IMG/VR virus record: IMGVR_UViG_3300039098_000080
Coordinates: 1 to 36,036 of that record
Reading direction: 5' to 3' (one strand)
From: a virus
DNA: 36,036 bases
The notes under the pieces are model-generated. The model had not been told where the DNA came from. It saw only the letters and a list, made by a program, of their open reading frames with translations, and did not search any database. A program made the translations under genes and the position numbers. Positions 2,851 through 33,065 of the stretch are shown in pieces (position 1 is the stretch's first letter; every line of letters starts with the position of its first letter).

Positions 2851-2878
2851 TACCGTCTCCTTATTTTATTTTTTATTG

Positions 2879-4572: not shown

Positions 4573-4766
4573 CAGCCAGCCTCTTGCAACGCAACAAGCG
4601 CAACAAGCGCAACACGCAGATCGGTAATGCTCTCCCCAGGGACAAAAAACTCACCCTCGTCATCTGTGTCAGGGTTGCACCCGACAGGCTCTGCAGCATC
4701 AATTAGCCCGCCAACACCAGCCACCAAATTTTCAACCGCCTCCAACAATTTATCTTTCTTTGCCAC
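4572..4766 (-). CDS. Small acidic hypothetical protein (64 aa)
   Basis: The protein starts MAKKDKLLEAVENLVAGVGG, is acidic in its middle, and ends in a VAL-VAL-VAL run encoded by a 9-base tandem repeat (near 4590-4613). TAGGAGG lies seven bases before the ATG, a strong ribosome site, and the TGATG junction couples it to the 434-residue gene. No family recognised. The repeat may vary in length between relatives. Confidence 0.6.
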   Translation of the reverse strand: MAKKDKLLEAVENLVAGVGGLIDAAEPVGCNPDTDDEGEFFVPGESITDLRVALVALVALQEAG

Positions 4767-4775
4767 TACATCCTC

Positions 4776-4982
4776 CTATAGATTTCGCGAAAGACTATTG
4801 ATCGTATACACAACCCGCCTAGGGGTACGAACCCCACGACCACTCAAGTCACTAATCAGCTGCACTACCTCATCTTGAGATATGTGACTAATCCTGAAAC
4901 AAACCTCTGGTATTTGCGCCTCTCCAACGTCGTTCAAAAAAGCCTCAACACTGTCCGCCGTGCTGGCAATGTTGCATCTCAT
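4776..4982 (-). CDS. Small hypothetical protein (68 aa)
   Basis: No family recognised. The sequence alternates short strands and helices (VEAFLNDVG, RISHISQDEVVQLISDLS) and has a basic C-terminus with RGVRTPRR. ATG at 4982 is preferred over an upstream TTG because it makes a TGATG overlap with the preceding gene and has GGAGGG at six to seven bases. It is part of the tight early run of small genes. Confidence 0.58.
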   Translation of the reverse strand: MRCNIASTADSVEAFLNDVGEAQIPEVCFRISHISQDEVVQLISDLSGRGVRTPRRVVYTINSLSRNL

Positions 4983-5212
4983 CAAAACAGCCCTCCCTGT
5001 TTATGAATTTTCGGGCGTCCAACTTTCGCCCGTTCAATCAAATATTCCTCCAGATCACGCCCCTGGAACTCAACAGCATCCAGCTCCTCCTCAATCGACG
5101 GCACGACATACCCCATACTGCCCTGCTCGATCTTGTTTTCCAGATCCTCAATCCGCTGCATCATGGCCGCGTTTTGATCAAGGAGCTGTTTGAGGAGTTG
5201 TTCGATTTGCAT
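4982..5212 (-). CDS. Small coiled-coil protein (76 aa)
   Basis: Residues 1-30 form an amphipathic heptad helix (MQIEQLLKQLLDQNAAMMQR, then IEDLENKIEQ), so a dimer or trimer is likely. The C-terminal part is acidic, then basic. No family recognised. No good Shine-Dalgarno sequence precedes the ATG; instead the upstream region carries the direct repeat TGTCGCTA twice (about 5214-5229). The stop overlaps the next start. Confidence 0.58.
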   Translation of the reverse strand: MQIEQLLKQLLDQNAAMMQRIEDLENKIEQGSMGYVVPSIEEELDAVEFQGRDLEEYLIERAKVGRPKIHKQGGLF

Positions 5213-5248
5213 CTGTCGCTATGTCGCTATTGCCCTCAGCTCAAAGAG

Positions 5249-5602
5249 CTAGGCAACGCCTCCCATTGCTAACCCATCTCTATCAACCAAAACCAGGCCA
5301 CGCTTTTTGCGGATAACCCCACATTCGTAATACAGGGTGCTCATGGTACACTCCATTTCGTCTATAAAACCAGATGGCCGTTTCAACTCTTCGCACAATT
5401 CAAATACTTCAGGAGCGCCTGGCGAAATTCCAAGCGCCAGCAACAATGGCACCAGATCTTCACCTGCCACAAATGCCTTGTACACAGCGAGATAATCATC
5501 CGCCATGGCCCGCAAACTGCCCTTGTCTTTTAAGTATTCAGCGTTAACCTCGTAACGATCCGCTATTACATAAAGCGCTTTATTCATCTCCGAGACTGTC
5601 AT
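5249..5602 (-). CDS. Hypothetical early protein (117 aa)
   Basis: No family recognised. The protein is mostly helical and acidic, with MADDYLAVYKAFVAGEDLVP and VFELCEELKRPSGFIDEME. A G-rich ribosome site (GGGGGG then AGG) lies just before the ATG. It is the first gene after the antirepressor-like gene, with a 60-base gap. Position suggests an early host-takeover or regulatory protein. Nothing in the sequence decides between these. Confidence 0.62.
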   Translation of the reverse strand: MTVSEMNKALYVIADRYEVNAEYLKDKGSLRAMADDYLAVYKAFVAGEDLVPLLLALGISPGAPEVFELCEELKRPSGFIDEMECTMSTLYYECGVIRKKRGLVLVDRDGLAMGGVA

Positions 5603-5663
5603 CCTGCCCCCCAGTTATTTTTCCGTATTTTTTTTGCACGCTGGCTTCAAACTGTCCTACTTC

Positions 5664-6374
5664 TTAGTTCGTAGCTTCCAACCGGAAAACTTTGGCGAGG
5701 TTCGTTAAGCCCTTTGGGGTAACGAGAACCTGTTCAATGACCTTTTCCCTGCCATCAGATGTGCAGGTAGTTGTTACCTTGTGATAAAGAACGCCTTGTT
5801 GGATTCTTTCCTGATAGGCGAGCCAGCCTTTTCCACCAGGCCTGCGATATATCCACTGGTTGGCGGACATCCAGTCAAACAGGTCTTTTATTCGTGGTAG
5901 CTGTAAGGACTTGGCAGTGTCCGTGATACATGTGAGGCCGTCAGCACTAGCTATCTTGTCGAACGCCTCAACAGTTGGAGTCTGCTTTTCAAGCCTTGCT
6001 TCCAGCTTGATTACTTTTTCAGTATAAGTAAGAAGAATCCCCCGCATCGCTTCGGGGTCGCTCAGGATCTCTACTGGATCACGGTGCTTGATTTGTTCTT
6101 CAAGATCTATCCACCGGTCGATAACTTTGGCGCGCCGAACAGCGTCATAGCCAGTGACGAGTGTCATCGTTGATTTGAAATCAAGGGAGTACATCGGGCG
6201 ATTTTCGCCTTTTTTATCTTTGTATTTAACGAGCTCAACTTTGGGCCCGTTGATAGCTCCTTCCGCTAACAGCACTCTTATATCGCGCATTACATTTTTG
6301 TGAGCCTTGCCAGTCAACCCTGCAATCTCAATGCTGGTCATTCTCTGTTCTGTTTGGACAGTTAAATCTTTCAC
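5664..6374 (-). CDS. Rha/KilAC-type phage antirepressor-like regulator
   Basis: The protein has 236 residues in two parts. The N-terminal ~95 residues match the phage Rha regulatory domain (LTGKAHKNVMRDIR, then RPMYSLDFKSTMTLVTGYD, then RAKVIDRWIDLEEQ). The C-terminal ~110 residues match the KilAC/antirepressor DNA-binding domain (LQLPRIKDLFDWMSANQWIY, GKGWLAYQERIQQG). Such proteins interfere with repressor control or replication and are toxic in some hosts. GTG at 6374 is chosen because GGAGGT sits four to five bases before it; a GTG four codons upstream overlaps that site. The 160-base upstream region carries direct repeats. With the RHH gene before it, this resembles an Arc/Ant anti-immunity module. 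Confidence 0.85.
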   Translation of the reverse strand: MKDLTVQTEQRMTSIEIAGLTGKAHKNVMRDIRVLLAEGAINGPKVELVKYKDKKGENRPMYSLDFKSTMTLVTGYDAVRRAKVIDRWIDLEEQIKHRDPVEILSDPEAMRGILLTYTEKVIKLEARLEKQTPTVEAFDKIASADGLTCITDTAKSLQLPRIKDLFDWMSANQWIYRRPGGKGWLAYQERIQQGVLYHKVTTTCTSDGREKVIEQVLVTPKGLTNLAKVFRLEATN

Positions 6375-6538
6375 GATTACCTCCACGTAGTGTGGTCTAT
6401 TTGCACTATTTCAAAGTGTGTTTTGTTCATGTCGTTTTTTTGACTAAGCGTTTGTAACATCCCGGAATTGTTGATGTATACCTTTGTCTACTTTTGTCTA
6501 CTTTTGGATACATAGGTATACCTGACAGGGCCAAAAAA
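6375..6538. promoter_or_regulatory. Putative control region of the antirepressor-like gene
   Basis: This non-coding gap lies between the RHH gene and the Rha/KilAC gene. It holds two exact tandem 10-base copies of TTTGTCTACT (6483-6492, 6493-6502), flanked by an inverted repeat (GTATACCT at 6476-6483 and AGGTATAC at 6514-6521). The second arm is part of the palindrome AGGTATACCT. Tandem half-sites flanked by palindromes suit a dimer-of-dimers RHH repressor. Operator function is inferred; no convincing -35/-10 pair could be fixed by eye. Confidence 0.45.
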
Positions 6539-6811
6539 TTAGGGTAGATCATTAAGTAAAGATTCAATGGTTCCCTGGTACCGATACATTTTTTCAATAT
6601 GGTCAAGATGAGAAACATAAAACTCAACCGCATCAGATATAACCGAACTGGTAGACCCACCACTTGCCCTGGCAACCTCTGCCACAACTCGCTTTTGAGT
6701 AGCCGTCAATTTTGCAGTAGCATTTTCACTGCGAGACTCTGTTTTCGCAGATTCTCCAAAGTTATTGATCTGTTTCTTGATTACCTGCGACAGCACCATC
6801 TGCTGTACCAT
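6539..6811 (-). CDS. Ribbon-helix-helix (Arc/CopG-type) DNA-binding protein
   Basis: The protein has 90 residues. After a charged N-terminal stretch, residues ~32-67 read AKLTATQKRVVAEVARASGG, then STSSVISDAVEFYVSHL. This is the beta strand, helix, turn and helix of an RHH repressor. The ATG at 6811 is preferred to an ORF opening 18 codons earlier, because AGAGGAG lies eight bases before it. It follows the Ner-like gene and precedes the antirepressor-like gene, matching the Arc position in P22 immI. Inferred role: repression of the next promoter. Confidence 0.7.
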   Translation of the reverse strand: MVQQMVLSQVIKKQINNFGESAKTESRSENATAKLTATQKRVVAEVARASGGSTSSVISDAVEFYVSHLDHIEKMYRYQGTIESLLNDLP

Positions 6812-6834
6812 TTTGCTCACTCCTCTTTTGTGTT

Positions 6835-6908
6835 TAAAAAAGACCAGCCCCTTGCTAAGATGCATTGCCAGACCAGTAGCAACGCGCTTGGAGGCACAAG
6901 TGGCTGGT
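6835..6908 (-). terminator. Branched RNA structure with T-tract after the Ner-like gene
   Basis: The outer arms ACCAGCC (6843-6849) and GGCTGGT (6902-6908) enclose two inner stems: TTGCTA/TAGCAA (6852-6857, 6877-6882) and CTTG/CAAG (6887-6890, 6897-6900). On the minus strand the outer stem is followed by six T. It begins just after the stop of the Ner-like gene. It could be a terminator or attenuator between the immunity switch and the downstream early genes. The three-way shape is read by eye only. Confidence 0.45.
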
Positions 6909-6915
6909 TTTTCAG

Positions 6916-7110
6916 TTATTTCCTTTCTGGAAACAACTCAGAAACCTCTTCCCCTATAGCCTTTGCAATGGCACTCCTAATCCTTGGATTAGGGCGGACC
7001 TTGTGTATCACCTGGCTCACGGTCGGTGGCTTCACGCCTAGTTTATGGGCAATACCTTTGACCGAGTTGCCAGACATACGCAATTTTTTTGTTATATCTT
7101 TGCCATCCAT
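6916..7110 (-). CDS. Ner/Nlp-like winged-HTH early regulator (Cro role)
   Basis: This 64-residue protein matches the Ner/Nlp family length and pattern: DITKKLRMSGNSVKGIAHKL, then GVKPPTVSQVIHKVRPNPRI and IRSAIAKAIGEEVSELFP. Ner of Mu represses early transcription as lambda Cro does. It is divergent from the repressor gene and shares its control region. The ATG lies on one arm of a perfect inverted repeat and no ribosome site precedes it, so the message may be leaderless or weakly translated. An internal ATG at residue 12 would remove the first helix. Confidence 0.78.
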   Translation of the reverse strand: MDGKDITKKLRMSGNSVKGIAHKLGVKPPTVSQVIHKVRPNPRIRSAIAKAIGEEVSELFPERK

Positions 7111-7137
7111 GCCTAATTTCTATCAGCAATTAGGCAT
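7109..7137. promoter_or_regulatory. Operator-like perfect inverted repeat between the divergent regulators
   Basis: ATGCCTAATT (7109-7118) and AATTAGGCAT (7128-7137) are exact reverse complements with a 9-base spacer. The left arm overlaps the start codon of the Ner-like gene. The right arm runs into CATAAT (7135-7140), a good -10 for rightward repressor transcription. One dimer bound here could block both directions. Binding by CI or Ner is inferred from position. Confidence 0.6.
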
Positions 7138-7162
7138 AATGGCAATCAAAAATAGGCGTTCC

Positions 7163-7693
7163 ATGGAAAGCTTGCAGAATTTTTACGCACGACTTGAGCG
7201 CGTGCTGTTTGAAAAAAACATGAAACCTGCTGATTTATCGAGAGAAACAGGAATAGATCAGGGGACAATCTCAAGGTGGAAAAAAAGAGGCACAACCCCT
7301 CAGCGGGATTCAATCGACAAGATTGTTGAGGTAACCAACGCAAGACGGGAATATTTAGTATTCGGCACTGAGCCAATATTCCACTTATTTCCAGCCGAGG
7401 CAGGCACCTCCACCATCAACCAAACCAACGTCGGCCAAGCACGCAATATCCAGAATTCCAATATAAACGGCGGGGCCTTTAACACTGCAGAACAAGATAG
7501 AGAGCTAACCAGGATGTACCGTGACCTGGAGCCACTCTCAAAACAAATCCTGATGGAAATAGCCGACTGGCTCAACGATACAGAAAAAATTCGCCCGGGA
7601 TTCAAGGCATGGTTTGCAGTGGAATTCCAAAACAGATTTCCAGAATTAGACGACTGGAAGCGGAACAAGAAAAAAAACGAGACTGGTTGTTAA
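7163..7693 (+). CDS. CI-type repressor without a peptidase S24 domain
   Basis: The N-terminal ~65 residues form a phage CI helix-turn-helix domain: FYARLERVLFEKNMKPADLS, then RETGIDQGTISRWKKRGTTP and IDKIVEVTNARREYLVFG. A polar Asn/Gln-rich linker (residues ~80-100) leads to a short helical C-terminal part (residues ~105-176), probably for oligomerisation. No LexA-like Ser/Lys protease is present, so RecA-driven self-cleavage is unlikely. ATG at 7163 leaves room for a promoter and leader; an in-frame ATG at 7139 would add eight residues but abuts the operator. Both have only a weak AGG ribosome site. Divergent from the Ner-like gene. Confidence 0.8.
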   Translation: MESLQNFYARLERVLFEKNMKPADLSRETGIDQGTISRWKKRGTTPQRDSIDKIVEVTNARREYLVFGTEPIFHLFPAEAGTSTINQTNVGQARNIQNSNINGGAFNTAEQDRELTRMYRDLEPLSKQILMEIADWLNDTEKIRPGFKAWFAVEFQNRFPELDDWKRNKKKNETGC

Positions 7694-7706
7694 TATTAAA
7701 AGGCAA

Positions 7707-7740
7707 ATATACCCTCAAATATATGGGTATATCTACCCAT
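7707..7740. promoter_or_regulatory. Competing inverted repeats upstream of the membrane-protein gene
   Basis: Arm ATATACCC (7707-7714) pairs with GGGTATAT (7725-7732). The sequence ATGGGTA (7723-7729) also pairs with TACCCAT (7734-7740). The middle segment can therefore form either of two hairpins. It lies between the repressor stop and the next gene, which has its own strong AAGGAGG. It could be a pair of operators or an attenuator-like switch. Seen directly; function unknown. Confidence 0.4.
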
Positions 7741-7802
7741 TTACAAAAAACCGGAAAACGTTTAAACCTCCTGTCTCAAAAAGCGCAATCAAGGAGGATT
7801 AG

Positions 7803-8285
7803 ATGCAGCCATACACCATCAGTCAGGCACACGCAGCCACTGCAACCGCTGTACAAAATAGCTATATAGGCAACCTATACAACACTGTCACCTGCACGGA
7901 CGAACTGTCTGGGATAGGCAACATGACGGCAGCAATATCAACCAACAGCTCCAGGCTTGAGCAGCTGGAGACGCTTTACAGATCAGCAAAGGCGAAACAT
8001 TCAGCGTCAGCAGATCTTGCAGAGCTCTGCATTAAAGCTTGCTTTGCCTGCTTACTAACGATTGGACTAAACGCATGGGCAGGTAACAGCTTTTTATCAA
8101 CTGGACCGATCCTAGCCGCCCCGTTCATCCTGATAGCAATTGCCATGCTCTTAATCTCACCAACCCGATCCATGGCAAAAAAGAAAAGATCACTAAAACG
8201 CCAGGTGAAAGTATGCGCAGAACTGCAGCACCAGCTTTGCAGAAAACGAGAAATTGAAGCACTCACCAACCGATATTCAGGATGA
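7803..8285 (+). CDS. Hypothetical membrane protein with two TM helices (160 aa)
   Basis: The polar N-terminal 70 residues are rich in Ala, Thr and Ser. They are followed by two hydrophobic segments (about 73-94 and 101-119) and a strongly basic tail (MAKKKRSLKRQ), which suggests a cytoplasmic C-terminus. AAGGAGG five bases before the ATG is a very strong ribosome site. It lies between repressor and integrase, the usual place for genes expressed in the lysogen, and could alter the envelope or exclude other phages. No family recognised. Confidence 0.65.
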   Translation: MQPYTISQAHAATATAVQNSYIGNLYNTVTCTDELSGIGNMTAAISTNSSRLEQLETLYRSAKAKHSASADLAELCIKACFACLLTIGLNAWAGNSFLSTGPILAAPFILIAIAMLLISPTRSMAKKKRSLKRQVKVCAELQHQLCRKREIEALTNRYSG

Positions 8286-8364: not shown

Positions 8365-8706
8365 ATGGGTATTTCTGGAGCTGAAATACAAAGACAAAAT
8401 AACAAGAAAAAAAGTGCGCAGCCACCTAGTAAACAACCGCCTAAAAAGCCATTTAAACAGAGATACAAGGAAGCTGCAGCAGCAAACCAACCTGTTTGTG
8501 TCAATTGCGGCTACCAGGGCAAACCTAAGCTATACACCAAAGGTAGTATTTTTATAGAAATAATAGCTTGGCTCATGTTTCTGCTGCCTGGCGTCATTTA
8601 CTCCCTTTGGCGTCACGCCAGCAGATATAAAGGGTGCCCACAGTGCAGCGCTCAAAATATGGTCCCGTCAAGTAGTCCGGTCGGCCGTAAGCTACTCAAT
8701 GGGTAG
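8365..8706 (+). CDS. Zinc-ribbon membrane protein (113 aa)
   Basis: The lysine/proline-rich N-terminus (residues 10-35) is followed by CVNCG (C45, C48), a hydrophobic segment (about 61-82, ending PGVIYSLWR), then CPQC (C91, C94) and a MVPSSSPVGRKLL tail. Two CxxC pairs around one membrane-associated helix match a small class of phage and bacterial proteins I recall by pattern but cannot name. AGGAG sits seven to eight bases before the ATG. Its end overlaps the nuclease gene by eight bases, which suggests joint expression. Probable lysogenic-conversion gene; function unknown. Confidence 0.68.
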   Translation: MGISGAEIQRQNNKKKSAQPPSKQPPKKPFKQRYKEAAAANQPVCVNCGYQGKPKLYTKGSIFIEIIAWLMFLLPGVIYSLWRHASRYKGCPQCSAQNMVPSSSPVGRKLLNG

Positions 8707-9139
8707 GGCAATATTGGCAGCGCTGCCCTTGCTCCTGTTAATAATTGCCCCGGCATACGCGTGGACAGGCAAAGTCAGCCATGTAGTAGATGGCGATACC
8801 ATAGACGTGCTCCATGATGGAGACAGGGAAAGGATAAGGCTTTACGGAATCGACACACCAGAACGAGGCCAGTTTTACTACAAACAAGCCAAGGAAGAGG
8901 TCAGGCGGCTGGTTGCGGGAAAAACAGTTACCGTTGAGCCATATTACCTAGACAACGGCAATCCCAGGCGAACCGTTGCAACCATCTCCATTGACGGCTT
9001 AAACATCAATCAGCACCTAGTGCAAGCAGGGTACGCCATAGTCCATCAAAAATACTGCACCAAAGATATCTGCAACAGCTGGAAAAACTTAGAAGCTACC
9101 GCCAAAATGCAGGAAAAAGGCATGTGGCCCTCGAGGTAA
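8699..9139 (+). CDS. Secreted thermonuclease (staphylococcal nuclease family)
   Basis: A Sec signal peptide (residues 1-21, cleavage after AYA) precedes one SNase domain. The catalytic set is complete: D31 in VVDGDT, then R47, D52 and E55 in IRLYGIDTPE, and R91 in the NPRRTVA segment. Members cut DNA and RNA using Ca2+. Export would place it in the periplasm or outside the cell. It overlaps the zinc-ribbon gene and ends three bases before the integrase start, so the three are probably co-transcribed. It could degrade incoming phage DNA or help scavenge DNA; both are inferences. The family assignment is firm. Confidence 0.9.
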   Translation: MGRAILAALPLLLLIIAPAYAWTGKVSHVVDGDTIDVLHDGDRERIRLYGIDTPERGQFYYKQAKEEVRRLVAGKTVTVEPYYLDNGNPRRTVATISIDGLNINQHLVQAGYAIVHQKYCTKDICNSWKNLEATAKMQEKGMWPSR

Positions 9140-11958: not shown

Positions 11959-13305
11959 CTACTCCAGCACCAGTTGCAGTTGCTCGTTTTTACTATCTTG
12001 AACAAGCCACTTTTTACACTTAGTAATATAAGTAATTGCCAACAGGCTTTCACCATCAACACCGGCCTCCAGGGTGCCATCCTCATTAAAATCAACGGTG
12101 CCCAGGTCTTCATGGAGCCAATCAACCGTCACCAGGCCGTAAATCGGATATCCAGTATTGGCAGACCCGGCAACAAACTCCACCACCTCCTCTACCTGGC
12201 GGCTCTCTATACCCATTGGCTCGATAGTTACCCAAGCCCCACCAGTATGTCGCAATGTAAGGACACCGGTCCACGGTACCTGGTAACCCCGAATCCCTTT
12301 TGCTGATCCGGTCAACGCCTGCTCCTCTTGCCGCAGTGTCGATTTATCGGTGAGGCTGTCAGATACACGATACTTGTTATAGCCAGGCTTATGTTCGGTG
12401 CGCTCATCCAGGTCAAACCAGGTTAACTGGTCCACTAAGATGGAGGCAGGGGTAACTCCACTCCAACCAGGCACAGCAACCGGATACAACGCCTCCACCA
12501 GCAAGATCCCATTTGGCAAAGACTGTAACTCGGCACCTGCAGCAGCAGCCAGTTTACGGATCAGCTCCAAAGGCGTCTCATCCGCAGCAAAAAATACCCC
12601 GCCACCAATGGGCCAGTCCACCGTCTGCCAATCAATGGTAACCGCACCTGCCAACCCGGCAACAATCCCAGAGGCCATACCTGACAGCTCACCACTCACA
12701 GGTTCTGCATATGGCGCATCCAACCAGGCAGCAGCAGAAAGGGCCGTCACATCATAATCAATACCGCCATGGCGGGTGGTCCGGTCTCGGCTCTCAATGG
12801 TGAACACAAACAGCTCCCCCAGGGCGGAAACCGTCAACTCAAGACCAGGCACACAGGCCGCATAATCTCGCTCGCTCTCCACGGTAACGGTGCAGCTCAG
12901 CCATGCCAGATCGTTTTTAATACTGATAGACGAAACCCCAACCGCTACACCATCAACCGCAACCAACCCGGTACCAACGTGATCCTCATGCCATCCAGGC
13001 AGCTCGGCGCAGCCATAGACAATATCAAGGCAACCAGCCACCGGCATGCGCTCAGGCAGGCCATACACAATCTCCAGCGCACCATCCACCTTGCCACCGG
13101 AAACGGCATATACAATATCCAGCTCACCGGCCACCACCCCAGGCAACCGGTAACAGATCTCCAGCGCACCCTCCACACCCTGGGCGCATCCATACACAAT
13201 CTCCAGCTCACCGGCCACCAGAGGCGCGCACCAGTAAACTATATCCAACGAGCCAGCCACTTTGGTTGCGCAGCCGTATACTATATCCAACGCTCCATCA
13301 GGCAT
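11959..13305 (-). CDS. Candidate tail-hub protein with seven N-terminal LDIVY repeats
   Basis: This is a 448-residue protein. Residues ~3-105 hold seven degenerate units of 14-16 residues built on G-x-L-[DE]-I-V-Y (GALDIVYGC, GSLDIVYWC, GELEIVYGC, GALEICYRL, GELDIVYAV, GALEIVYGL, GCLDIVYGC). The remainder (about 115-448) is beta-rich and resembles tail-hub/baseplate proteins in overall style (VFTIESRDRTTRHGGIDYDV, then ETPLELIRKLAAAAGAELQ), but I cannot name a family. GGAGG eight bases upstream supports the start. The repeat block could form a beta-solenoid or strand stack that oligomerises or binds the receptor or tape measure. The repeats are seen; hub function is inferred from position. 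Confidence 0.65.
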   Translation of the reverse strand: MPDGALDIVYGCATKVAGSLDIVYWCAPLVAGELEIVYGCAQGVEGALEICYRLPGVVAGELDIVYAVSGGKVDGALEIVYGLPERMPVAGCLDIVYGCAELPGWHEDHVGTGLVAVDGVAVGVSSISIKNDLAWLSCTVTVESERDYAACVPGLELTVSALGELFVFTIESRDRTTRHGGIDYDVTALSAAAWLDAPYAEPVSGELSGMASGIVAGLAGAVTIDWQTVDWPIGGGVFFAADETPLELIRKLAAAAGAELQSLPNGILLVEALYPVAVPGWSGVTPASILVDQLTWFDLDERTEHKPGYNKYRVSDSLTDKSTLRQEEQALTGSAKGIRGYQVPWTGVLTLRHTGGAWVTIEPMGIESRQVEEVVEFVAGSANTGYPIYGLVTVDWLHEDLGTVDFNEDGTLEAGVDGESLLAITYITKCKKWLVQDSKNEQLQLVLE

Positions 13306-14854: not shown

Positions 14855-15810
14855 GCCTCGGTACCGGACAGAGTAAAGCTGTCGTTTTCGTCCAGGTCGT
14901 CGGCGTCGCTGGATTTATAACCACTGGCAGTCACCACCACCCCGTGGTCGCCACCCTGGAGCACCGTCCCGCCGGATGGATCGCCCACCGGGTTACCATC
15001 CACCACAAACTCGGCACCGATGATGGGGTCGCCGGTGCAAAAATCAAACGCTTCGAACACCACCTCGTACTCGCCATCCTCTTCCACCGGCTGTCGGGCT
15101 CCACCGCCAATGCTATACCCACCCTCGCAGGTGCCAAAATTTTCCGGCATCTCAATCTCAACCGACTCTTTTTGACCACCGGCATATAATTTGACCGTGG
15201 CAGCGTAGAGGTCGCCAATATTAAAATCATCACTGGCCTGTTGCTCTTCGGTGGCGTCCCTGGGCTCCAGGGTCAGTACATGATGCCAATAGCTCACGTT
15301 TTTGGTGATTGCCAAAGTACCGTCCAGCAGCTGCGGCGCGGTCACCTGCTGGCCATCCAGTACCAGCTCCGGAGCGGCAATAATAGCCCCGGCATCGTCA
15401 CGCACATCACCCTCAAACTCGGCTGCGGTGATGGTGCCAAAATCAACCCCCTGGTTATCAGCCAGGTCAAGCTCCACCCGCTCGGTCCTGGTATCCTCAA
15501 CCAACTCACCAGGGCCAACAGTGCCGTAACTGGTCACCAGGCTATAGGCCGCTGTCATGTCAGAGAGATAGACCCGCAACCCCACCTCTAGCACACCGTC
15601 AGCAGTACAGGCGCTTTTGTACTCCTCATATGCCTGGATCAGGTTGGATACAGTAGGGACAAGCTCCCGCTCCGCCATCCATTCCTCAAACGCGCCTGGC
15701 GACTTAAACGGGTACTCATCCTGCTCCAGGGCAATAGAGAGATCGGTGTCCGCGCCAGGGGCATCGTCATCTGGCCTTGGGATGTAGGTTAGTATTAAGG
15801 AGGTATTCAT
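14851..15810 (-). CDS. Tail-region protein with C-terminal Ig-like/carboxypeptidase-regulatory-like domain
   Basis: The protein has 319 residues and is very acidic. The first ~215 residues are unrecognised. The last ~80 (YEVVFEAFDFCTGDPIIGAE, then FVVDGNPVGDPSGGTVL and GVVVTASGYKSSDADDL) match the sandwich fold of carboxypeptidase-regulatory-like or PEGA-type domains often seen in phage surface proteins. It has ATGA overlaps at both ends. Likely a surface-exposed virion protein; the domain call is by pattern only. Confidence 0.62.
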   Translation of the reverse strand: MNTSLILTYIPRPDDDAPGADTDLSIALEQDEYPFKSPGAFEEWMAERELVPTVSNLIQAYEEYKSACTADGVLEVGLRVYLSDMTAAYSLVTSYGTVGPGELVEDTRTERVELDLADNQGVDFGTITAAEFEGDVRDDAGAIIAAPELVLDGQQVTAPQLLDGTLAITKNVSYWHHVLTLEPRDATEEQQASDDFNIGDLYAATVKLYAGGQKESVEIEMPENFGTCEGGYSIGGGARQPVEEDGEYEVVFEAFDFCTGDPIIGAEFVVDGNPVGDPSGGTVLQGGDHGVVVTASGYKSSDADDLDENDSFTLSGTEA

Positions 15811-16094
15811 GGCCCACCAACCGGTGGAAAATCAATCGAAAAGCCAAAACTCTTGAGCAGGGTAACCACAGCCAGGGCAACAATAATACTCACCACTGTG
15901 CGCGGGATACTCCATTTGATATTATTGACACGAGCAAAAAAAACGGCCATTTCTTGCATTTGCTCATGGTCCCGCTGGTGCTGCCCTGGATCAATGCCAA
16001 ATTTGCAAGCATCATGGCGTAGCTCCATGTCTGCACTCAGCTCTGCTGCGACCGCCGCAGCAATCTCTTTTCTGTCTTTTTCGGTCAGGGCCAT
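15807..16094 (-). CDS. Small single-TM protein, holin-like candidate (95 aa)
   Basis: The N-terminal 55 residues are charged and helical, with a histidine-rich segment (LRHDACKFGIDPGQHQRDHE). One transmembrane helix follows (about 65-83), then a short tail. ATG at 16094 is preferred to an upstream GTG because TAGGTG precedes it by seven bases. The histidine/aspartate pattern is one I recall from small phage membrane proteins near tail genes. It may be a holin or antiholin paired with the 111-residue protein; nothing proves this. Confidence 0.58.
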   Translation of the reverse strand: MALTEKDRKEIAAAVAAELSADMELRHDACKFGIDPGQHQRDHEQMQEMAVFFARVNNIKWSIPRTVVSIIVALAVVTLLKSFGFSIDFPPVGGP

Positions 16095-16103
16095 AGAGCA
16101 CAC

Positions 16104-16439
16104 CTACACTTTAGGAGAGGTAATAAGTGTTTGCTTAAGCCCAGTGCGTTTACCTGTAAATTGGCCAAGGGAAAGCAACCCGGGAAAGAGCAGCGCTAAC
16201 GGTTGCAGCATCTCCCAAATATCAAGCGGTGCTCTCGTTGTAAGCTGACTAACCGCTAAAATATCATTAAATGTCGTGGCCGCCTCCAGGGCCTTGGCCA
16301 CAATCAGTTGCTGCACAGATGGATCAACAGGGCGCGTGTTTTGATAGGTGATATAGCCAACCATAACCAACACTGCCACCACCATCACTCCCTGCAAAAT
16401 ACCTTCTAACGACTGCCAACTTGGTTTTAAATTGTCCAC
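16104..16439 (-). CDS. Small membrane protein, possible holin (111 aa)
   Basis: One strong transmembrane helix (about 12-32, GVMVVAVLVMVGYITYQ) and a second hydrophobic stretch (about 75-93, LQPLALLFPGLLSLG) are separated by a polar helix, with a basic C-terminus. The GTG start is chosen because AGGAG sits seven bases before it. The ORF is open much further upstream, but only through the lipoprotein gene. Together with the 95-residue protein it is the best lysis-pore candidate, though the lysozyme is about 5 kb away. Confidence 0.6.
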   Translation of the reverse strand: MDNLKPSWQSLEGILQGVMVVAVLVMVGYITYQNTRPVDPSVQQLIVAKALEAATTFNDILAVSQLTTRAPLDIWEMLQPLALLFPGLLSLGQFTGKRTGLKQTLITSPKV

Positions 16440-16449
16440 TTTAAATCTC

Positions 16450-17166
16450 CTATGGTTGCACACTGCATTTGCCATCAATATAGGATTGCCCAGAGCTACA
16501 ACCCACGATCCCGTTGAACCATTCGCTACTGGAGGATTCTTCTTCTCCGCCTGCAGCTGGCTCATTAACAGGCGCATATGGGCCTTGATACTGCCCCTCC
16601 ATACCAAACTCCTGCCCTGCACCAGCTTTATTGTAACTCTGAATTACAGGGCTATTGCTATACGTAGGGGTATCGGTCATACTTGTGACCATTCCGGTAA
16701 ATCGATCTATACCGAAAGCAATGGTCCCAAATTTAAACGCGGTACCAAAAATATTTTCAGCCGTTTTCCATCCTGGATGTACACTTGGGTCCATGGAGAG
16801 TTTAGCAATAAAAGCAGTGCTTGGCGCTGGGGTGTGCTTGGCGTAATCAACGGTAGGCTCGTCCCACGAAAATGATTGCCCGTTAACAACCACGGTACGC
16901 TTAACCATCTTCATTTTTATTTCGGTGCCAGCTTTAGCAACAGCATCAAAATACCCTAGCAATATTTGCACATTTGCATTTTTGGTTATCATTTCCTTGG
17001 CTGTAGAGGTGTCGGTGATGTAGCCAAGCCGCTTTGTGTTTTGCTTGGACACACCGTCCACGGTCTCTGGCAGTTGCTCCAAAACCTCCAGCGGGATAGG
17101 TGCCATTGTCCCGCTACACCCACCCAACAACAAGAGCAATGCGATTACTGCGACTGATCGTGTCAT
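16450..17166 (-). CDS. Predicted lipoprotein in the tail cluster (238 aa)
   Basis: A signal sequence ends in the lipobox LGGC, with C17 as the lipidation site, so the mature protein should be anchored to a membrane. The rest is unrecognised: soluble mixed alpha/beta, then a Gly/Glu/Ser-rich stretch (about 200-215, GGEEESSSSEWF) and a terminal two-cysteine segment (GCSSGQSYIDGKC). It follows three genes whose products also carry signal peptides. It could be a superinfection-exclusion lipoprotein or an anchor for exported fibres. It is too long for an ordinary outer-membrane spanin. Confidence 0.72.
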   Translation of the reverse strand: MTRSVAVIALLLLLGGCSGTMAPIPLEVLEQLPETVDGVSKQNTKRLGYITDTSTAKEMITKNANVQILLGYFDAVAKAGTEIKMKMVKRTVVVNGQSFSWDEPTVDYAKHTPAPSTAFIAKLSMDPSVHPGWKTAENIFGTAFKFGTIAFGIDRFTGMVTSMTDTPTYSNSPVIQSYNKAGAGQEFGMEGQYQGPYAPVNEPAAGGEEESSSSEWFNGIVGCSSGQSYIDGKCSVQP

Positions 17167-17176
17167 AATGAACTCA

Positions 17177-18595
17177 CTATAAAGTTTGGATAGGCGTACC
17201 GAGCCAATTGTTCTGGCAAGTACTCTCTGTTACGGTTACCGATCCGCCACCGGCAACATCCGAAGCTGTCACATCAGATTGACAAAGGGTGATATTGGAT
17301 GAGTTGTTATAGGTCGTGTACACCTTGTCTCCGTCCGACCTGTTGGTGCTGATCTCGTTATGAGAAAAAACTATATCAGAATACGCAGGGTCATTACTCG
17401 TCACAACGTAGCCGCCAGTATTGCCACCAGTATGCTCTAAAATATTGCTATATATATCTACATTGGAAACCATACCATCGTAGCTATAGAGTTTGATTAC
17501 ATCGCCAGAGGACTTGAATATATTGTTGTAAATGAGGATATCAGCAGTCGCGTTTGGTGGATCATCACCAAGACTGACAATGGAAGTGTCGGCATCTGAC
17601 CCGGAAGCGTCAACATTGTTACTGTGGATGATATGTCCGGTGGAGCCTGCATCATTAGTGTTGGATGATCTGGCACGGAAAACAGCTACACTGTTGCCAG
17701 AGCCGTTTTGAGAGGTGACGGTGATGTCATTATCATGAATGTTCCAGTTGTCAGTACCGGAATCCATCAAGAAGATTCGGCCATGATCACCAGCAAAGTT
17801 AATAGTTTCGTTATAGATTTCGTGACCGTCAGCAGTAGGGCTCCAGGCTGCATATACGTTTACAGCCCGACTGTCTGCCTGTACGGTAATGGTGTTGTCA
17901 TGGATAGTGTAGTTGTACCCTACGATGTTAAAAACATAGGGGTATCGCCCATCACTTGGCAGGGTATGGTTGTGAACCAGTACGGTGTTGTGATGTATGT
18001 CCCATGTACCTGTACAGTAAAATGCGTAAAACCTATCCGCGCCACTTAGGTCAAAGTTGTTATTATACAACTCATTCCCTACGCCAGAACTTTCGATTCT
18101 GATACCGTATGCCCTTGTCGAATACCCTGCATGAGCAACAACGTTAAAATCGTTGTCGTGGATCGTGTAACCGTATCCAGAACCACGGATGGCGTACACA
18201 TAGGTATTCCCACTGTACGCACCTTGGTTAAAAGTCACCCCGTTGACCAGTGCTCCACTGGTGTTGCCAACATTGTAATAAATAGCATTGCCAGCACCAC
18301 TCTGAGCATAAGCAATACTCTTGTTGTTACCCCATATCTTGACACCATTTGCAGTGATAGTAATGGCGCTTCCTGACGCAGCAGAAAGGTTTTCGCTTAA
18401 ATAATAGTCGCCAGCAGAGTTGATAGTTTTAGGGACATCAGCTTGGGCAATCGCAATAGCCCCTTCCGGCGGGGCTGTATCTCCTGGCTCTGCACCGCCA
18501 CCGGCCGAATAGGTGAAAGCACCGCTACCGGTAAAACTAGCCCAGGCTGTAGCTGCAACGAGCCAAGAGAGTAAGAGTAGGGTTGTAGTTCTCAT
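17177..18595 (-). CDS. Exported parallel beta-helix protein (tailspike-like)
   Basis: The protein has 472 residues. A Sec signal peptide (1-20, ending AWA) precedes a right-handed beta-helix. Repeated rungs such as YTIHDNDF, NELYNNNF, WDIHHNTV, YTIHDNTI and WNIHDNDI are spaced about 25-30 residues apart, as in PbH1/NosD or pectate-lyase folds. This fold is typical of tailspikes and polysaccharide lyases. A signal peptide is not expected on a virion protein. Either the exported form acts on surface polysaccharide of the host, or fibre maturation here passes through the periplasm. The fold call is strong; enzymatic activity is unknown. Confidence 0.8.
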   Translation of the reverse strand: MRTTTLLLLSWLVAATAWASFTGSGAFTYSAGGGAEPGDTAPPEGAIAIAQADVPKTINSAGDYYLSENLSAASGSAITITANGVKIWGNNKSIAYAQSGAGNAIYYNVGNTSGALVNGVTFNQGAYSGNTYVYAIRGSGYGYTIHDNDFNVVAHAGYSTRAYGIRIESSGVGNELYNNNFDLSGADRFYAFYCTGTWDIHHNTVLVHNHTLPSDGRYPYVFNIVGYNYTIHDNTITVQADSRAVNVYAAWSPTADGHEIYNETINFAGDHGRIFLMDSGTDNWNIHDNDITVTSQNGSGNSVAVFRARSSNTNDAGSTGHIIHSNNVDASGSDADTSIVSLGDDPPNATADILIYNNIFKSSGDVIKLYSYDGMVSNVDIYSNILEHTGGNTGGYVVTSNDPAYSDIVFSHNEISTNRSDGDKVYTTYNNSSNITLCQSDVTASDVAGGGSVTVTESTCQNNWLGTPIQTL

Positions 18596-18598
18596 CTG

Positions 18599-19294
18599 CT
18601 ACCTCTCCACGTATTGCAGGATAATGCCAAGCCCTGTTGTTTCAGATTCACCGTGTCCTGTAATATCAATAGGTGGTAACCCGCCCACCCAAGCATCAGA
18701 GAAAAACTTAATTTTATCCCCTGGAGTGCTATAGACACCAAGGTTACTGGCTTGTGTAAACTCTCCACCAACACATATTTGGATATCATCACCTATGTCA
18801 GCGTCAAGGCTCTCTCCACTCTCTACTATTAATGCGCCACTGACGTAATCAAGCCACGATCCGGTAGGCATGTAGGAGAGTTCTTGTGTTTTAGCAACAA
18901 GGAGCTTGTTAACATATACCAACCCGTACACATTCATTTCCGGTGTCCAGGTGGTTACCTTATGATAAGGGCTTAACGCTTCCAGGGTTATGTTCACCTC
19001 AGGCGCAACTGTCCTGCAATATACTCTATCAGCACTGGAGCCATAGCCAGTGGTTGGGGTTTGAGTAGAGGTACCGGACGCATCGGAAGGCGTCCCAATC
19101 CAAGCCGTATCGCCACCACCTTCTACGACATCGAGTAGCGCCCATGTCCCATCATAACGCTTTTTCGTAACATCAAGCCAAGCTGAGCCTGTGTAGACTT
19201 TCGTTTGGTCATAAACCAAATCGACAGCGCCAGTATCTACCTGGGCGGAGCAAAGAACGGGGAAAAGGAGCAGGGCAATTAATATTCGAAACAT
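18599..19294 (-). CDS. Exported fibre-associated protein (231 aa)
   Basis: The protein starts MFRILIALLLFPVLCSAQ, a clear Sec signal with probable cleavage after CSA. The mature part is beta-rich (VDLVYDQTKVYTGSAWLDVT, VYCRTVAPEVNITLEALS). The ATG at 19294 follows GGGGG by five bases and lies inside the 3' end of the fibre gene (16-base overlap). No family recognised. The LVYDQTKVYTGSAWLDV segment resembles short tail-fibre attachment motifs. It may be a fibre tip or adaptor. Shares export signals with its neighbours. Confidence 0.65.
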   Translation of the reverse strand: MFRILIALLLFPVLCSAQVDTGAVDLVYDQTKVYTGSAWLDVTKKRYDGTWALLDVVEGGGDTAWIGTPSDASGTSTQTPTTGYGSSADRVYCRTVAPEVNITLEALSPYHKVTTWTPEMNVYGLVYVNKLLVAKTQELSYMPTGSWLDYVSGALIVESGESLDADIGDDIQICVGGEFTQASNLGVYSTPGDKIKFFSDAWVGGLPPIDITGHGESETTGLGIILQYVER

Positions 19295-21210
19295 AAATCC
19301 CCCGTTGCCATTCCGGTTGCGGTAGCGCAATCATCTAAAATAAATATTTCAACCGTCCCCGAATTGGCTGTGACAGTTATCTCGCTATCGCGTGCGATTG
19401 TTGATGCTATATGTGCATCTGCTACAGTCCCCGTGGAGATATTGTCAGCATTAATTCCTGTGCCAACTTTGCCACCACTCAAACTGCCGTCTGCAAGGTC
19501 AGTAAGATTTGCATTAAGATCTTGCTTAGATACCCAACTGCACACCGTTGCATCTCTTGCAACACCGTCAGAAAAAGTTACGGAGGTGGGAGCAGCACAA
19601 TTTAAAACCTGTCCCGCTGCGGGGTCAACTATTGGGAGCAAAAGGACCAGGTCGTTATCATTAGATGCAGGGGAGCCAAAACCAACATAATTTGTACCGT
19701 TGTCGCTATCCTCGGAAAATGCCACAACTTGCCCGCCCAGTGCGGTAGGATTAACGGAAAATGATTTACCAATAACGTCGCCATCTGCATCAACGATAAA
19801 GCCACCTGTGCCAGCAGATATGGTTCCCAATGTTACGTTATCGCTCGGTTGCACCGCGCTATTGAGCAACACCTTGTCACTGGCTGGCATTACCCCGGCT
19901 GCACTGGTGGTGGCTGCTGGTATATCGGTATTGGTACCGCTGCTGGAGGTTACCAGTACGCTGTCTGCATCTGGAGAATTGCCCAGGTTAGCCCCGGTGG
20001 CCTCGTTAGCAACCTCCTCTATGGCGTCCTGCACGTTGGTTGCGGCAATGGTTCCTGCTGGGGTAAAGGGTACCTCAGTTGCTGCCTGATCAGCCGTTGC
20101 CCCATCCTCTATCGCTGCCAGCCTGGTAGATGCGGTGGTACTAAAAGATACTTTTGCAGTATTGGCGGCCACGGACGCATTGGCAGCAGTAGCACTCTCA
20201 AAATCGGAGATGGTAGCAGCAACCTGGGTACCGATGTGGCTGGCCCTGGCATTGCTGGCACCAGTGCCGATCCCTGCCAATTTTGTTTTTTCTAAGTCGG
20301 TAAACCCGTTAGTGTCGGCCTCGGACTCGTAAGCGGTTTTAATTTCTGCGCCGCTCTGATCGTCGGTTGCACCTTCACCCACCCCGGCCAGTTTGCCTTG
20401 CATGGCCGCAGTCATCACCCCTGCGTCGTCTGCCGTGGCAGCAGGCAAGGTGGTATCCGCACCAGCTGAACTGGTAATGGTAACGGTGGTGGTGGTGGTG
20501 GAGCTCCCCAGATTAGTGGAGCCGGAGCCGTCGTCAAATTCACAGTCAACGCTGCCGTCCTCGTACACCTTACGGATCGATTGACCCACCGGGCACTCAG
20601 CAGAGACACGGCGCTGGGTATAGGTTGGGTCAATAGCGAGTGGTACCGTGCCGCTGGTGCCGCCGCCGGTTAAACCGGTGGAAGCGGTTACCCCCTCAAT
20701 ATCTCCGGACCCGGTGGCCGCATCCTCACAGATAGCGGTGCCGTCTACGTTGATGCCGGTCATCACTTGGCCGGGGCAGGTGCCGGTCACTCTGGCCTGT
20801 TTGGCAGTGAGCACTGTATCCAGGGCGGAGTTATCGGTGGGATTGCCGGATAACTCGGCAAAGGTGCTGGCCCCATCGCCGGTAAACGCGGTCCATTGGT
20901 TGACGTTGGTGGCCGGATCATCGGTACCACTCGCGCCACCAGCCTTGGCCACATACAACTTGCCTAGATACGAGCACATGGCATGCTCTGCATAGGAGCC
21001 GCCCGAAACCCATACCTCAACCCCCATCAAGGCCAGCTTGGCATCGTGACCAGCATCAGCGCTGTACAACTCGGTAAAGTTGGCGTTTATCTTTGTTTTT
21101 TGGCCACTCCACAGGATACCTGCCCCAGACTCAATAGTCTGCTTGGCAGCTGTGGCTATACCCACCGGCACAAGCAGCAACAGGAGGCCAATCAGTATTT
21201 TTTTTGTCAT
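19279..21210 (-). CDS. Tail-fibre-like protein with an N-terminal signal peptide (643 aa)
   Basis: Residues 1-22 (MTKKILIGLLLLLVPVGIAT, then AA) form a typical Sec signal. The body has fibre hallmarks: Gly/Thr/Ser-rich stretches, TGLTGGGTSG, repeated GKLAGVGEGATDDQSGAEI and LAGIGTGA / LAAIEDGATADQAATEV segments, and DDAGVMTAA motifs as in side-tail-fibre proteins. A short motif before the middle (GGSYAEHAMCSYLGKLYVAK) resembles carbohydrate-binding modules. The start forms TGATG with the 44-residue gene. A signal peptide on a phage fibre is unusual; no adhesin autotransporter domain is visible. Confidence 0.78.
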   Translation of the reverse strand: MTKKILIGLLLLLVPVGIATAAKQTIESGAGILWSGQKTKINANFTELYSADAGHDAKLALMGVEVWVSGGSYAEHAMCSYLGKLYVAKAGGASGTDDPATNVNQWTAFTGDGASTFAELSGNPTDNSALDTVLTAKQARVTGTCPGQVMTGINVDGTAICEDAATGSGDIEGVTASTGLTGGGTSGTVPLAIDPTYTQRRVSAECPVGQSIRKVYEDGSVDCEFDDGSGSTNLGSSTTTTTVTITSSAGADTTLPAATADDAGVMTAAMQGKLAGVGEGATDDQSGAEIKTAYESEADTNGFTDLEKTKLAGIGTGASNARASHIGTQVAATISDFESATAANASVAANTAKVSFSTTASTRLAAIEDGATADQAATEVPFTPAGTIAATNVQDAIEEVANEATGANLGNSPDADSVLVTSSSGTNTDIPAATTSAAGVMPASDKVLLNSAVQPSDNVTLGTISAGTGGFIVDADGDVIGKSFSVNPTALGGQVVAFSEDSDNGTNYVGFGSPASNDNDLVLLLPIVDPAAGQVLNCAAPTSVTFSDGVARDATVCSWVSKQDLNANLTDLADGSLSGGKVGTGINADNISTGTVADAHIASTIARDSEITVTANSGTVEIFILDDCATATGMATGDLCFEY

Positions 21211-21344
21211 CAATCCATCTCCAAGTCGTCTGTCATTTCCAGATCGTCCAGCATCTCCAGGGTACCGCTATCCTCTTCGCTGGGTGCCGTCATCGGCAGA
21301 GCAAAGACACCGCCAAACGGATCAGCGCAGATATCGGCAAACAT
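21210..21344 (-). CDS. Very small acidic protein before the fibre gene (44 aa)
   Basis: The protein reads MFADICADPFGGVFALPMTA followed by an acidic tail with DDLEMTDDLEMD. It is linked at both ends: TAATG with the upstream gene and TGATG with the fibre gene, with GGAG about nine bases before its ATG. Such double coupling supports real translation. No family recognised; it may be a tail-assembly adaptor or a pure coupling leader. Confidence 0.6.
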   Translation of the reverse strand: MFADICADPFGGVFALPMTAPSEEDSGTLEMLDDLEMTDDLEMD

Positions 21345-21640
21345 TACGCATACTCCACGCCAAAGGCGTTGCCAGTGGAGAGCGGTTTTTTTATCCGCAT
21401 CAGCCCGGTATACGGCACGCCCCGTGCGTTGTTGCCCGCGTCCAAGGTATAGGCTGCGCCACCAGACATGATAGAGGTCCAGTGACTATCGTTATCTACA
21501 TCTGGCGCCAGCTGTGTTGGTTGCTCCAGGGGCACGGTCTCTGCTCCCAGGGTGCCGATAATGCGGAGAGTCCCGCCCCGGTTATCCCGGCGGACATGGA
21601 GCAGCTGGTTGACTGCCGCCTGTGTTGGTTCTATGCGCAT
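21344..21640 (-). CDS. Hypothetical tail protein (98 aa)
   Basis: Small and beta-rich: LRIIGTLGAETVPLEQPTQL, then DSHWTSIMSGGAAYTLD, ending in FGVEYA. No family recognised. It lies between the 331-residue tail protein and the fibre block, and ends in TAATG overlapping the 44-residue gene. It may be a small surface or adaptor protein of the tail tip. Confidence 0.6.
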   Translation of the reverse strand: MRIEPTQAAVNQLLHVRRDNRGGTLRIIGTLGAETVPLEQPTQLAPDVDNDSHWTSIMSGGAAYTLDAGNNARGVPYTGLMRIKKPLSTGNAFGVEYA

Positions 21641-21665: not shown

Positions 21666-22661
21666 TCAGGAGCCGGATTCTCCAAAAAAGCGGAGCTTGA
21701 CCTTATTTACATCGACAAAACTGCTACAGCCTGCAGGGGTTTCCCTGACCAGCCAAACAGGAGGTGCAGCAGGGTGGGTCTGGAAAACCAGGGTATTGCC
21801 AGCAGCCATGGCGGTGATCGCGCCAGCAGGGAGTGCGAAATAGGGTTTGCTGTTAATCGGATTAAGCGGTGCAAACTCGGCAGAGATAGTGCCGCCTGCA
21901 AGTGCGCCCACCGTATCACCCACCACCCCAAAGGCTGCGCTGTCAGATCCGGTCAGGGTCCAGGTTTGTTCGATGGTGCCCAGATTATCGCCTGCCAACG
22001 AGTCGGCAGTGTAGGACAACCCGGTGGCGCTCACGTTATCGATCCCGGTGGCAATGGTGCCTGGTTGGTACACAGAACACACCCTCGCCCCATCAGCTAC
22101 GGTGTACGCATTATCCAGCCCACCACTCAAGGTAAGGGTGATATCCAACTCACTCACGCCGGGCACCCCGGACACGGTCTTGATCTCGGTATTGGCAGCA
22201 GTCAACACCCCTGTGTTGCTGGTAATCTTGACCATATCCGCATTGGCAAACAGGCCCACCAAGCCAGCGTCCTCAACGGTCACAACCACGATTGAAACCC
22301 CGGCATCGACATCACTCTTAAGCACTGCACTGCCAAACTTTCGCGGTCCAGATATACCGCCCTGGGTGTCCCGCTGGGTACCGGCAAACAGATACAACCA
22401 ATCCTCGGCAGGGGTGGGGCTATCCAGCCACAACCCAGCTGCCAACAAGGACAGATCCGCGTCATTAGCCACCAATGGAAACAGCTTGCGATAGACAACA
22501 GAGCCGCTGATGCGTTCATTCTCCAGGCTGTGACCAAACAGCGCCTCGGCCACCCCGGAGCTAATCCGGTTGCCCAGGTCAATCCGCCCGCCATTGCTGG
22601 AGGTGGCATTCACCACCGCCGCATTATAAAAATAATTGAGTTCGCTACTGGTTATGGCCAT
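21666..22661 (-). CDS. Phage tail protein (331 aa), unrecognised family
   Basis: The N-terminus has a structural-protein style (SELNYFYNAAVVNATSSNGG, RIDLGNRISSGVAEALFG), followed by beta-rich repeats and Gly/Ala/Thr-rich segments. I recall similar proteins in mosaic proteobacterial phages after the tape measure gene, where they are called minor tail proteins. TAAATG joins it to the upstream gene, with AGGAG seven bases before the start. Probably part of the tail tip. Confidence 0.65.
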   Translation of the reverse strand: MAITSSELNYFYNAAVVNATSSNGGRIDLGNRISSGVAEALFGHSLENERISGSVVYRKLFPLVANDADLSLLAAGLWLDSPTPAEDWLYLFAGTQRDTQGGISGPRKFGSAVLKSDVDAGVSIVVVTVEDAGLVGLFANADMVKITSNTGVLTAANTEIKTVSGVPGVSELDITLTLSGGLDNAYTVADGARVCSVYQPGTIATGIDNVSATGLSYTADSLAGDNLGTIEQTWTLTGSDSAAFGVVGDTVGALAGGTISAEFAPLNPINSKPYFALPAGAITAMAAGNTLVFQTHPAAPPVWLVRETPAGCSSFVDVNKVKLRFFGESGS

Positions 22662-32312: not shown

Positions 32313-33065
32313 TCAAACGACTTGTTCATGTTTATACGCAGCGGTGCTTAAATACTCCCATGCGTTTCTAACCACCACCGGTACCTGTCCGTTGCCAATG
32401 GCTTTAGTCCGCTCCACCCTATCGGCCACCCCTGAACCGCTTCCAGCATTTCTGGAGACGGTGCCCATCCAGTTTTCAAGCACCGCTCTGTAGTCCCTTT
32501 CCGGTAACGCTCTTTTGTCCGCGACAGACCCCACCCACTTTTTCCCATGCTCGCTGTCGGGGTAGGCCAGTAGGAACATCCGGTCACGTGTTTGTGGTGC
32601 ACCAAACATGCACGCCGAAAACACATCCCATTCGCAAGCGTACCCGAGCGAGGCCAACCCAAAGAGAATTTCTCCAAAGTATGGGTGAGTAATGATTTTT
32701 GCGGAGTTTTCCAACAGCGCTCCCCGGGGTCGAACAATGCGAATGCACTCAAGCGTTTCTGGCCACCTGTTGCGTTCGTCATTTTGTCCAAGCCTGAAAC
32801 CTCCTGCAGCGAATGGCTGGCAGGGGAATCCAGCTGTAATGATATCAACCATTCCCGAATATGCGCCGGCGTACCCTTCCTCAATGAAAGTTTTGATATC
32901 GCCGAAAATTGGCGCGTCATCGAGGAGTCCGTCAATAACTCTCGCCCTGATTTGCTTCTGGCAATGGTCGTTCCGCTCGACATATCCAACGGGTGTAAAT
33001 CCAAGTAGCTTTGTTCCAAGCAACCCCCCTCCAGCTCCAGTGAACAGGCTCAACTCTGTAATCAT
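32313..33065 (-). CDS. DNA cytosine-C5 methyltransferase
   Basis: This compact 250-residue enzyme has its key motifs visible: motif I LSLFTGAGGGLLG (5-17), motif IV GFPCQPFAAGG with catalytic Cys82, motif VI as ENS (119-121; ENV is usual), motif VIII QTRDR (158-162), and motif X AIGNGQVPVVV. The region between VIII and X that reads the DNA target is only about 50 residues. It uses S-adenosylmethionine to methylate cytosine, probably to protect phage DNA from host restriction. No partner endonuclease is adjacent. It sits in a cassette between large terminase and portal. Confidence 0.93.
   Translation of the reverse strand: MITELSLFTGAGGGLLGTKLLGFTPVGYVERNDHCQKQIRARVIDGLLDDAPIFGDIKTFIEEGYAGAYSGMVDIITAGFPCQPFAAGGFRLGQNDERNRWPETLECIRIVRPRGALLENSAKIITHPYFGEILFGLASLGYACEWDVFSACMFGAPQTRDRMFLLAYPDSEHGKKWVGSVADKRALPERDYRAVLENWMGTVSRNAGSGSGVADRVERTKAIGNGQVPVVVRNAWEYLSTAAYKHEQVV

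Follow-up and report, generated by a model that had tools for sequence, protein, structure and literature searches.

Tailed-phage virions are, in the textbook view, assembled wholly in the cytoplasm. The locus described here raises the question of why four consecutive proteins encoded among tail genes, one of them of tail-fibre type, carry signals for export. The window (the whole stretch of DNA analysed) is the 36,036-base IMG/VR virus record IMGVR_UViG_3300039098_000080, which encodes a terminase, portal, protease, major head protein, major tail protein, tape measure, lysozyme, repressor and integrase. By this gene content, the phage is temperate (integrase, repressor) and siphovirus-like, and its tail relatives point to Proteobacteria as the host. 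A DNA methyltransferase gene lies between the terminase and portal genes (32313-33065, minus strand).

Position and export signals of the cassette

The cassette comprises four consecutive late genes on the minus strand (16450-21210), with tight or overlapping spacing. All four open reading frames are present, with plausible ribosome-binding sites at the starts used. They encode a tail-fibre-type protein of 643 aa (19279..21210), a 231-aa protein whose gene (18599..19294) has a 16-bp overlap with the end of the fibre gene, a 472-aa protein with a predicted beta-helix (17177..18595), and a 238-aa lipoprotein (16450..17166).

The cassette is located inside a siphovirus-type tail-tip module, all on the same strand. 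The upstream flank is a 331-aa tail-tip protein (21666..22661) that matches the C-terminal domain of phrog_6128/9261 and resembles the C-terminal domain of a large tail protein in Pseudomonas, Acidovorax, Shewanella and Curvibacter phages, while a 448-aa tail protein (11959..13305; phrog_24698/phrog_6079) marks the downstream end of the module. Two transmembrane genes come after the cassette: directly downstream of the lipoprotein gene is that of a holin-like 111-aa membrane protein (16104..16439), followed by that of a small 98-aa protein with a hydrophobic C-terminal segment (15807..16103), and neither product matched any family. Just upstream of the fibre gene is encoded another 98-aa protein (21344..21640), without a signal, whose single-sequence structure model (pLDDT 46) was set aside. 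Its homologues in the podovirus-like contigs G009 and G011 (38-43% identity, E 4e-25) occupy the same relative place, ahead of an exported fibre, and parts of the module are therefore common to siphovirus- and podovirus-like phages.

Signal calls were made with a home-made heuristic predictor calibrated on 46 annotated genes of an E. coli K-12 stretch (11/13 true calls, 1/33 false). The earlier note had read three Sec signals and one lipobox in these four consecutive genes, and the prediction was positive for all of them, with a positively charged n-region, a hydrophobic core and either an A-x-A site or a lipobox. The fibre has a predicted 21-aa SPI signal, MTKKILIGLLLLLVPVGIATA, cut before AKQTI; the SPI signal predicted for the 231-aa protein is MFRILIALLLFPVLCSA, cut before QVD; and that of the 472-aa protein is MRTTTLLLLSWLVAATAWA, cut before SFT (the script itself cut at 17). 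The 238-aa protein begins with the lipobox signal MTRSVAVIALLLLLGG followed by C-SG (LGG|C, with Ser at +2), which fits PROSITE PS00013 and predicts sorting to the outer membrane if the host uses Lol. The only other signal-positive gene in the window encodes a 146-aa SNase-family nuclease with a Sec signal (8699..9139, plus strand), next to the integrase. G006, G009 and G011 have signal-bearing relatives of this nuclease close to their cassettes, which suggests that an exported nuclease travels with such phages.

The background was taken from 1,006 genes of other phage loci that had been selected without regard to signals: 1.2% of them scored positive, and no convincing run of signal-bearing genes was found. 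Because of this low background, the run in the window is not attributable to chance: the expected number of four-gene runs per genome is about 1e-6, and label shuffling inside the window gave p = 0.001. Judged from these N-termini, export of the cassette proteins is very probable. The heuristic does give false positives, and the N-termini might be hydrophobic anchors or products of mis-assigned starts, with the proteins staying in the cytoplasm. This is highly improbable, given that almost all cassette members in the various lineages show a charged n-region, an h-region and an A-x-A site or lipobox, and given the ribosome-binding sites at the starts used, and a cleavage register that agrees with unexported homologues. 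A dual-start form, using internal GTG codons in the signal, was also considered and is unlikely, as no Shine-Dalgarno sequence was seen by eye.

The fibre N-domain and its partner proteins

The 643-aa fibre matches PHROG and cyanophage tail fibres, and its signal is followed by the AKQTIESGAGILWSGQKTKINANFTELY N-domain and by phage fibre repeats. This domain, AxQTI...KINxNFxELY, is here encoded in a tail/late cluster. A scan of IMG/VR viral contigs with the KINxNFxELY pattern returned 120 viral loci, and every homologue in other viral contigs (127/127) lacks a preceding signal, beginning M-AKQTINIGT... or similar. The predicted signal-peptidase cut in the window fibre leaves exactly the N-terminus (AKQTI) of these unexported proteins. 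At the level of sequence, the N-terminus of the window fibre consists of a signal prefixed to an ordinary tail-fibre domain.

A second pattern scan, directed at a tryptophan subfamily of the N-domain, yielded further loci. The L174 fibre carries the signal MKKTLLIIVLVCCSQTALA, cut at ALA|AQQTI and followed by AQQTILGGSGVYW; that of L184 has a signal and then AQQMIL; that of L192 (G006) has the lipobox LTVGC|AQ and then AQQTVLGG; and the L185 fibre-domain protein begins M-AQQTILGGSGVLW, without a signal. In an alignment of the N-domain family, 16 of about 100 columns are invariant, nearly all of them inside the N-domain. Two proteins of L185 bear enzymes unusual for phage fibre-type proteins: the unexported fibre-domain protein (3587-5239) has a zinc carboxypeptidase M14 domain, and a GDSL esterase domain is found in the protein after it (6210-7748).

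As for the partners, phage records contained no homologue of the 231-, 472- or 238-aa protein, and a search of viral contigs was likewise negative for those of 231 and 238 aa. The 231-aa protein is fibre-like by eye. The single-sequence model of the 472-aa protein is of low confidence (pLDDT 52), and its leading Foldseek matches are largely beta-helix lyases, epimerases and tailspikes, the beta-helix ones only at E>0.05 and none of any kind at E<=0.001. According to this model, the protein is probably a right-handed parallel beta-helix and possibly a glycan lyase or depolymerase. In PHROGs and Pfam, it matched no tailspike, head-binding or tail family. The 238-aa lipoprotein was rejected as a spanin, its PHROG Rz matches reaching only E 0.15-0.24 and being centred on the signal.

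Recurrence in other phages and joint switching of signals

In at least six other virus lineages, genes for exported fibres, lectin-like proteins, beta-helix proteins and lipoproteins stand in similar runs, which lie within the structural module in all contigs studied. Whole contigs were read, and beta-helix assignments in the relatives were made by eye from sequence; as the relatives were gathered partly through the fibre itself, this recurrence is not a frequency among all phages. In G005, a P22-like podovirus by gene content, the signal-bearing run encodes proteins of 142 and 61 aa, a 548-aa fibre, a 618-aa beta-helix-like protein and a 239-aa lipoprotein, which from the fibre onward is the order of the window. 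G009, a close relative of G011, has a 572-aa fibre, a 233-aa protein, a 437-aa beta-helix-like protein and a 113-aa lipoprotein. The run of G006 consists of an SNase, a lipidated or exported 383-aa fibre, and proteins of 232 and 752 aa, and that of G007 of a 356-aa fibre and proteins of 198 aa (with a weak signal) and 434 aa. In G010, four consecutive signal genes separate terminase from portal; two of these were assigned by eye, the script having scored them as membrane anchors. The contig also has a lipoprotein and an exported 398-aa fibre. The latter combines the tail-fibre N-domain phrog_26190, the T4-type fibre repeats phrog_910 and the virion-protein domain phrog_13989 with a weak head-binding-domain match. 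Label shuffling put the G005, G006 and G009 runs at p about 0.002, and the automatic runs in G007, G010 and G011 were not significant.

The earlier note had proposed a search for the same four-gene order in other phages. Similar runs were seen in at least six lineages, with the matching order in G005; no signal-gene run occupies this place in L044-L049, six annotated phages whose tail or terminase is similar. A search for prophages and hosts returned only repeat fragments in genome contigs and nothing in 369 genomes of one phylum. In a high-GC viral contig (L004, 18970-20391), signal genes follow the tail module, and one of these is encoded on the other strand.

The related phages G006 and G008 (tail-tube protein 45% identical, tape measure 32%) differ in their signals. 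In G006 both the fibre and the DTFTE protein have signals; in G008 both lack them, and there enzyme domains are present, a zinc carboxypeptidase in the 550-aa fibre-domain protein and a GDSL esterase in the DTFTE protein. A 266-aa protein of G011 with a signal is the counterpart of a 229-aa protein of G009 without one, and a common N-domain is found in the 398-aa protein of G010 (signal) and a 518-aa protein of G005 (no signal). In sister contigs, as read from their sequences, signals are gained or lost jointly, as a set. Such interchangeability of exported and unexported forms suggests that function starts only after the compartments mix.

An insertion of ordinary exported morons, that is, of unrelated secreted host-type proteins with no common function at a permissive tail/lysis site, has to be weighed against these data. 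The tail/lysis junction is a common insertion point, and the GC content of the three downstream cassette genes (0.47-0.48, versus 0.53-0.57 in most flanking tail genes) suggests recent arrival. Nevertheless, fibre, lectin-like and beta-helix proteins recur beside exported fibres in several lineages, the domains are fibre-specific and the signals switch jointly, which makes this origin unlikely.

A simple form of the arrangement exists in cultured phages, reached first in Xanthomonas phage PBR31 through matches to the exported G010 protein. The orf035 protein of this phage, a putative structural protein by annotation, starts with MKKLIALFSLFCTSAFG, with a cut before ATLN, and gp19 of Burkholderia phage BcepC6B, annotated as a tail fibre, begins MKKLIAILLAVPALALG, with a cut before ATLA. 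Over their C-terminal halves, both proteins match phrog_11393 (tail fibre) as well as the solved structure of tail fibre 8vbx, whose receptor-binding domain is found at their ends. The same C-terminal domain is present in unexported T7-family-type fibres of Pectobacterium and Klebsiella phages. No virion-binding N-domain was recognised in gp19 or orf035. The accessible part of the PBR31 description mentions a signal only for the esterase gp40 (PMC10975493). Another cultured phage, Rhodoferax phage P26218 (L233, 5218-5727), encodes a 169-aa Sec-signal protein two genes after its tail fibre.

Site of action and comparison with known systems

The cassette may be best explained as a set of tail-fibre-type proteins that have been diverted into the Sec pathway and serve in binding and probably also in glycan degradation. 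After export late in infection, signal peptidase would cleave the fibre, the 231-aa protein and the beta-helix protein, which would then fold in the periplasm, and the lipoprotein would be sent to the outer membrane. At lysis, holin and lysozyme would mix cytoplasm and periplasm and the work of the cassette proteins would begin, the cleaved fibre, with the N-terminus of its unexported homologues, docking on progeny virions or acting beside them outside. From the signals, the in-register N-domain, the recurrence and the joint switching, all legible in the sequences, we infer actual export, periplasmic folding and docking at lysis. Our confidence that the proteins form an accessory set for binding receptors or glycans, are produced in the periplasm, act when lysis mixes the compartments and probably dock on virions falls just short of even, and the docking itself is proposed tentatively.

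Docking at lysis would account both for the precise register in which virion-type N-domains are conserved and for the interchangeability of exported and unexported forms, since either form would meet the virions once holin and lysozyme open the cell. For P22 and T4, it is established that tailspikes and fibres can attach in vitro to particles already completed. Against docking, the lipobox of the G006 fibre may indicate membrane tethering, lipoproteins accompany several cassettes, and most of the contigs encode ordinary fibres or tail-tip proteins without signals as well. Searches for virion proteomics turned up none on the cassette-type proteins. Cysteine content does not clearly support periplasmic folding either, since neither total rate (1.27 versus 1.17 per 100) nor parity separates the cassette proteins. 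The exported fibres are richer in cysteine than their marine homologues, and a disulfide argument built on this was dropped as confounded, the unexported L185 proteins being equally rich.

Alternatively, the lipoprotein could hold the exported proteins in the periplasm or at the outer membrane, where they would bind the host receptor glycan or trim it, serving in superinfection block (as decoy or by exclusion), in keeping progeny off debris or as lysogen adhesins. This would explain the lipoproteins (window, G005, G009 and G010), the lipidated G006 fibre and the BcepC6B and PBR31 proteins, which join a signal to a receptor-binding domain and have no recognised virion-binding N-domain. It also suits a temperate phage, and there is a precedent in lambda, whose exported, signal-bearing Lom is encoded amid the tail genes (PMC12309495). 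Conversely, a decoy would not need virion-type N-domains in exact register, unexported homologues exist (G008), and no promoter or terminator near the cassette start, such as would mark a Lom/Bor-type moron expressed in the lysogen, rose above chance in consensus scans, themselves weak evidence, nor did any RNA element at the cassette. Retention in the envelope is the main rival to the favoured reading and somewhat less likely than it. The earlier note had offered display on the cell or periplasmic maturation of virion fibres, and sequence decides neither. The second has become more plausible without being proven, as the signals are real, recurrent and on genuine fibre modules; the first is kept alive by the lipidated fibre of one relative and the lipoprotein partners in several.

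Within the open-access literature, no description of exported tail fibres was found, so the earlier claim that no such system is described holds there. Fibre modules that repeatedly gain signals, as a set, in unrelated phages would either contradict the view of wholly cytoplasmic assembly or bring to light a class of envelope proteins that phages encode and put together from parts of fibres. In both cases, the annotation and expression of receptor-binding proteins and depolymerases would change. Recurrence in several unrelated phages suggests that phage fibres can be made or used by a route not yet described. More tentatively than docking itself, it can be proposed that in some tailed phages the periplasm is where part of the receptor-binding apparatus is made, with Sec export, folding outside the cytoplasm and fitting at lysis, and that whole cassettes switch by gaining or losing signals. 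The simple case of BcepC6B and PBR31 makes the question testable now.

The cyanophage and marine M-AKQTI...KINxNFxELY fibres share the N-domain of the window fibre and a similar repetitive body, but they have no signal (127/127 in the IMG/VR loci), whereas the window fibre has one of 21 aa. Tailspike depolymerases of the P22/Sf6 type have the beta-helix fold also predicted, in a low-confidence model, for the 472-aa protein, and a tailspike-like, head-binding-like domain occurs as a weak match in the exported G010 protein; known tailspikes are, to our knowledge, made in the cytoplasm without a signal. Small outer-membrane lipoproteins of the T5 Llp type block the phage's own receptor. The window lipoprotein has a lipobox, but also 238 aa and no homologue, and such an activity would be hypothetical for it.

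Lambda Lom and similar exported morons are, like the cassette, signal-bearing genes in a tail cluster; Lom, however, is a single outer-membrane beta-barrel and not a fibre. In Caudoviricetes sp. vir555 (L237, BK063671), four or five consecutive signal genes (2712-8141) encode a fibre-like protein, a QNFEGTGYDNSETW protein, whose domain is common to G009, and a beta-helix-like protein, with a fibre N-domain different from that of the window. The record gives a Methanomicrobiales (methanogen) host, for which host misassignment or cross-domain transfer is possible. Finally, BcepC6B gp19 and PBR31 orf035 resemble the window fibre in their Sec signal, their fibre or structural annotation and their position between tail and lysis genes, but each is a single exported gene with a different N-domain rather than part of a multi-gene cassette.
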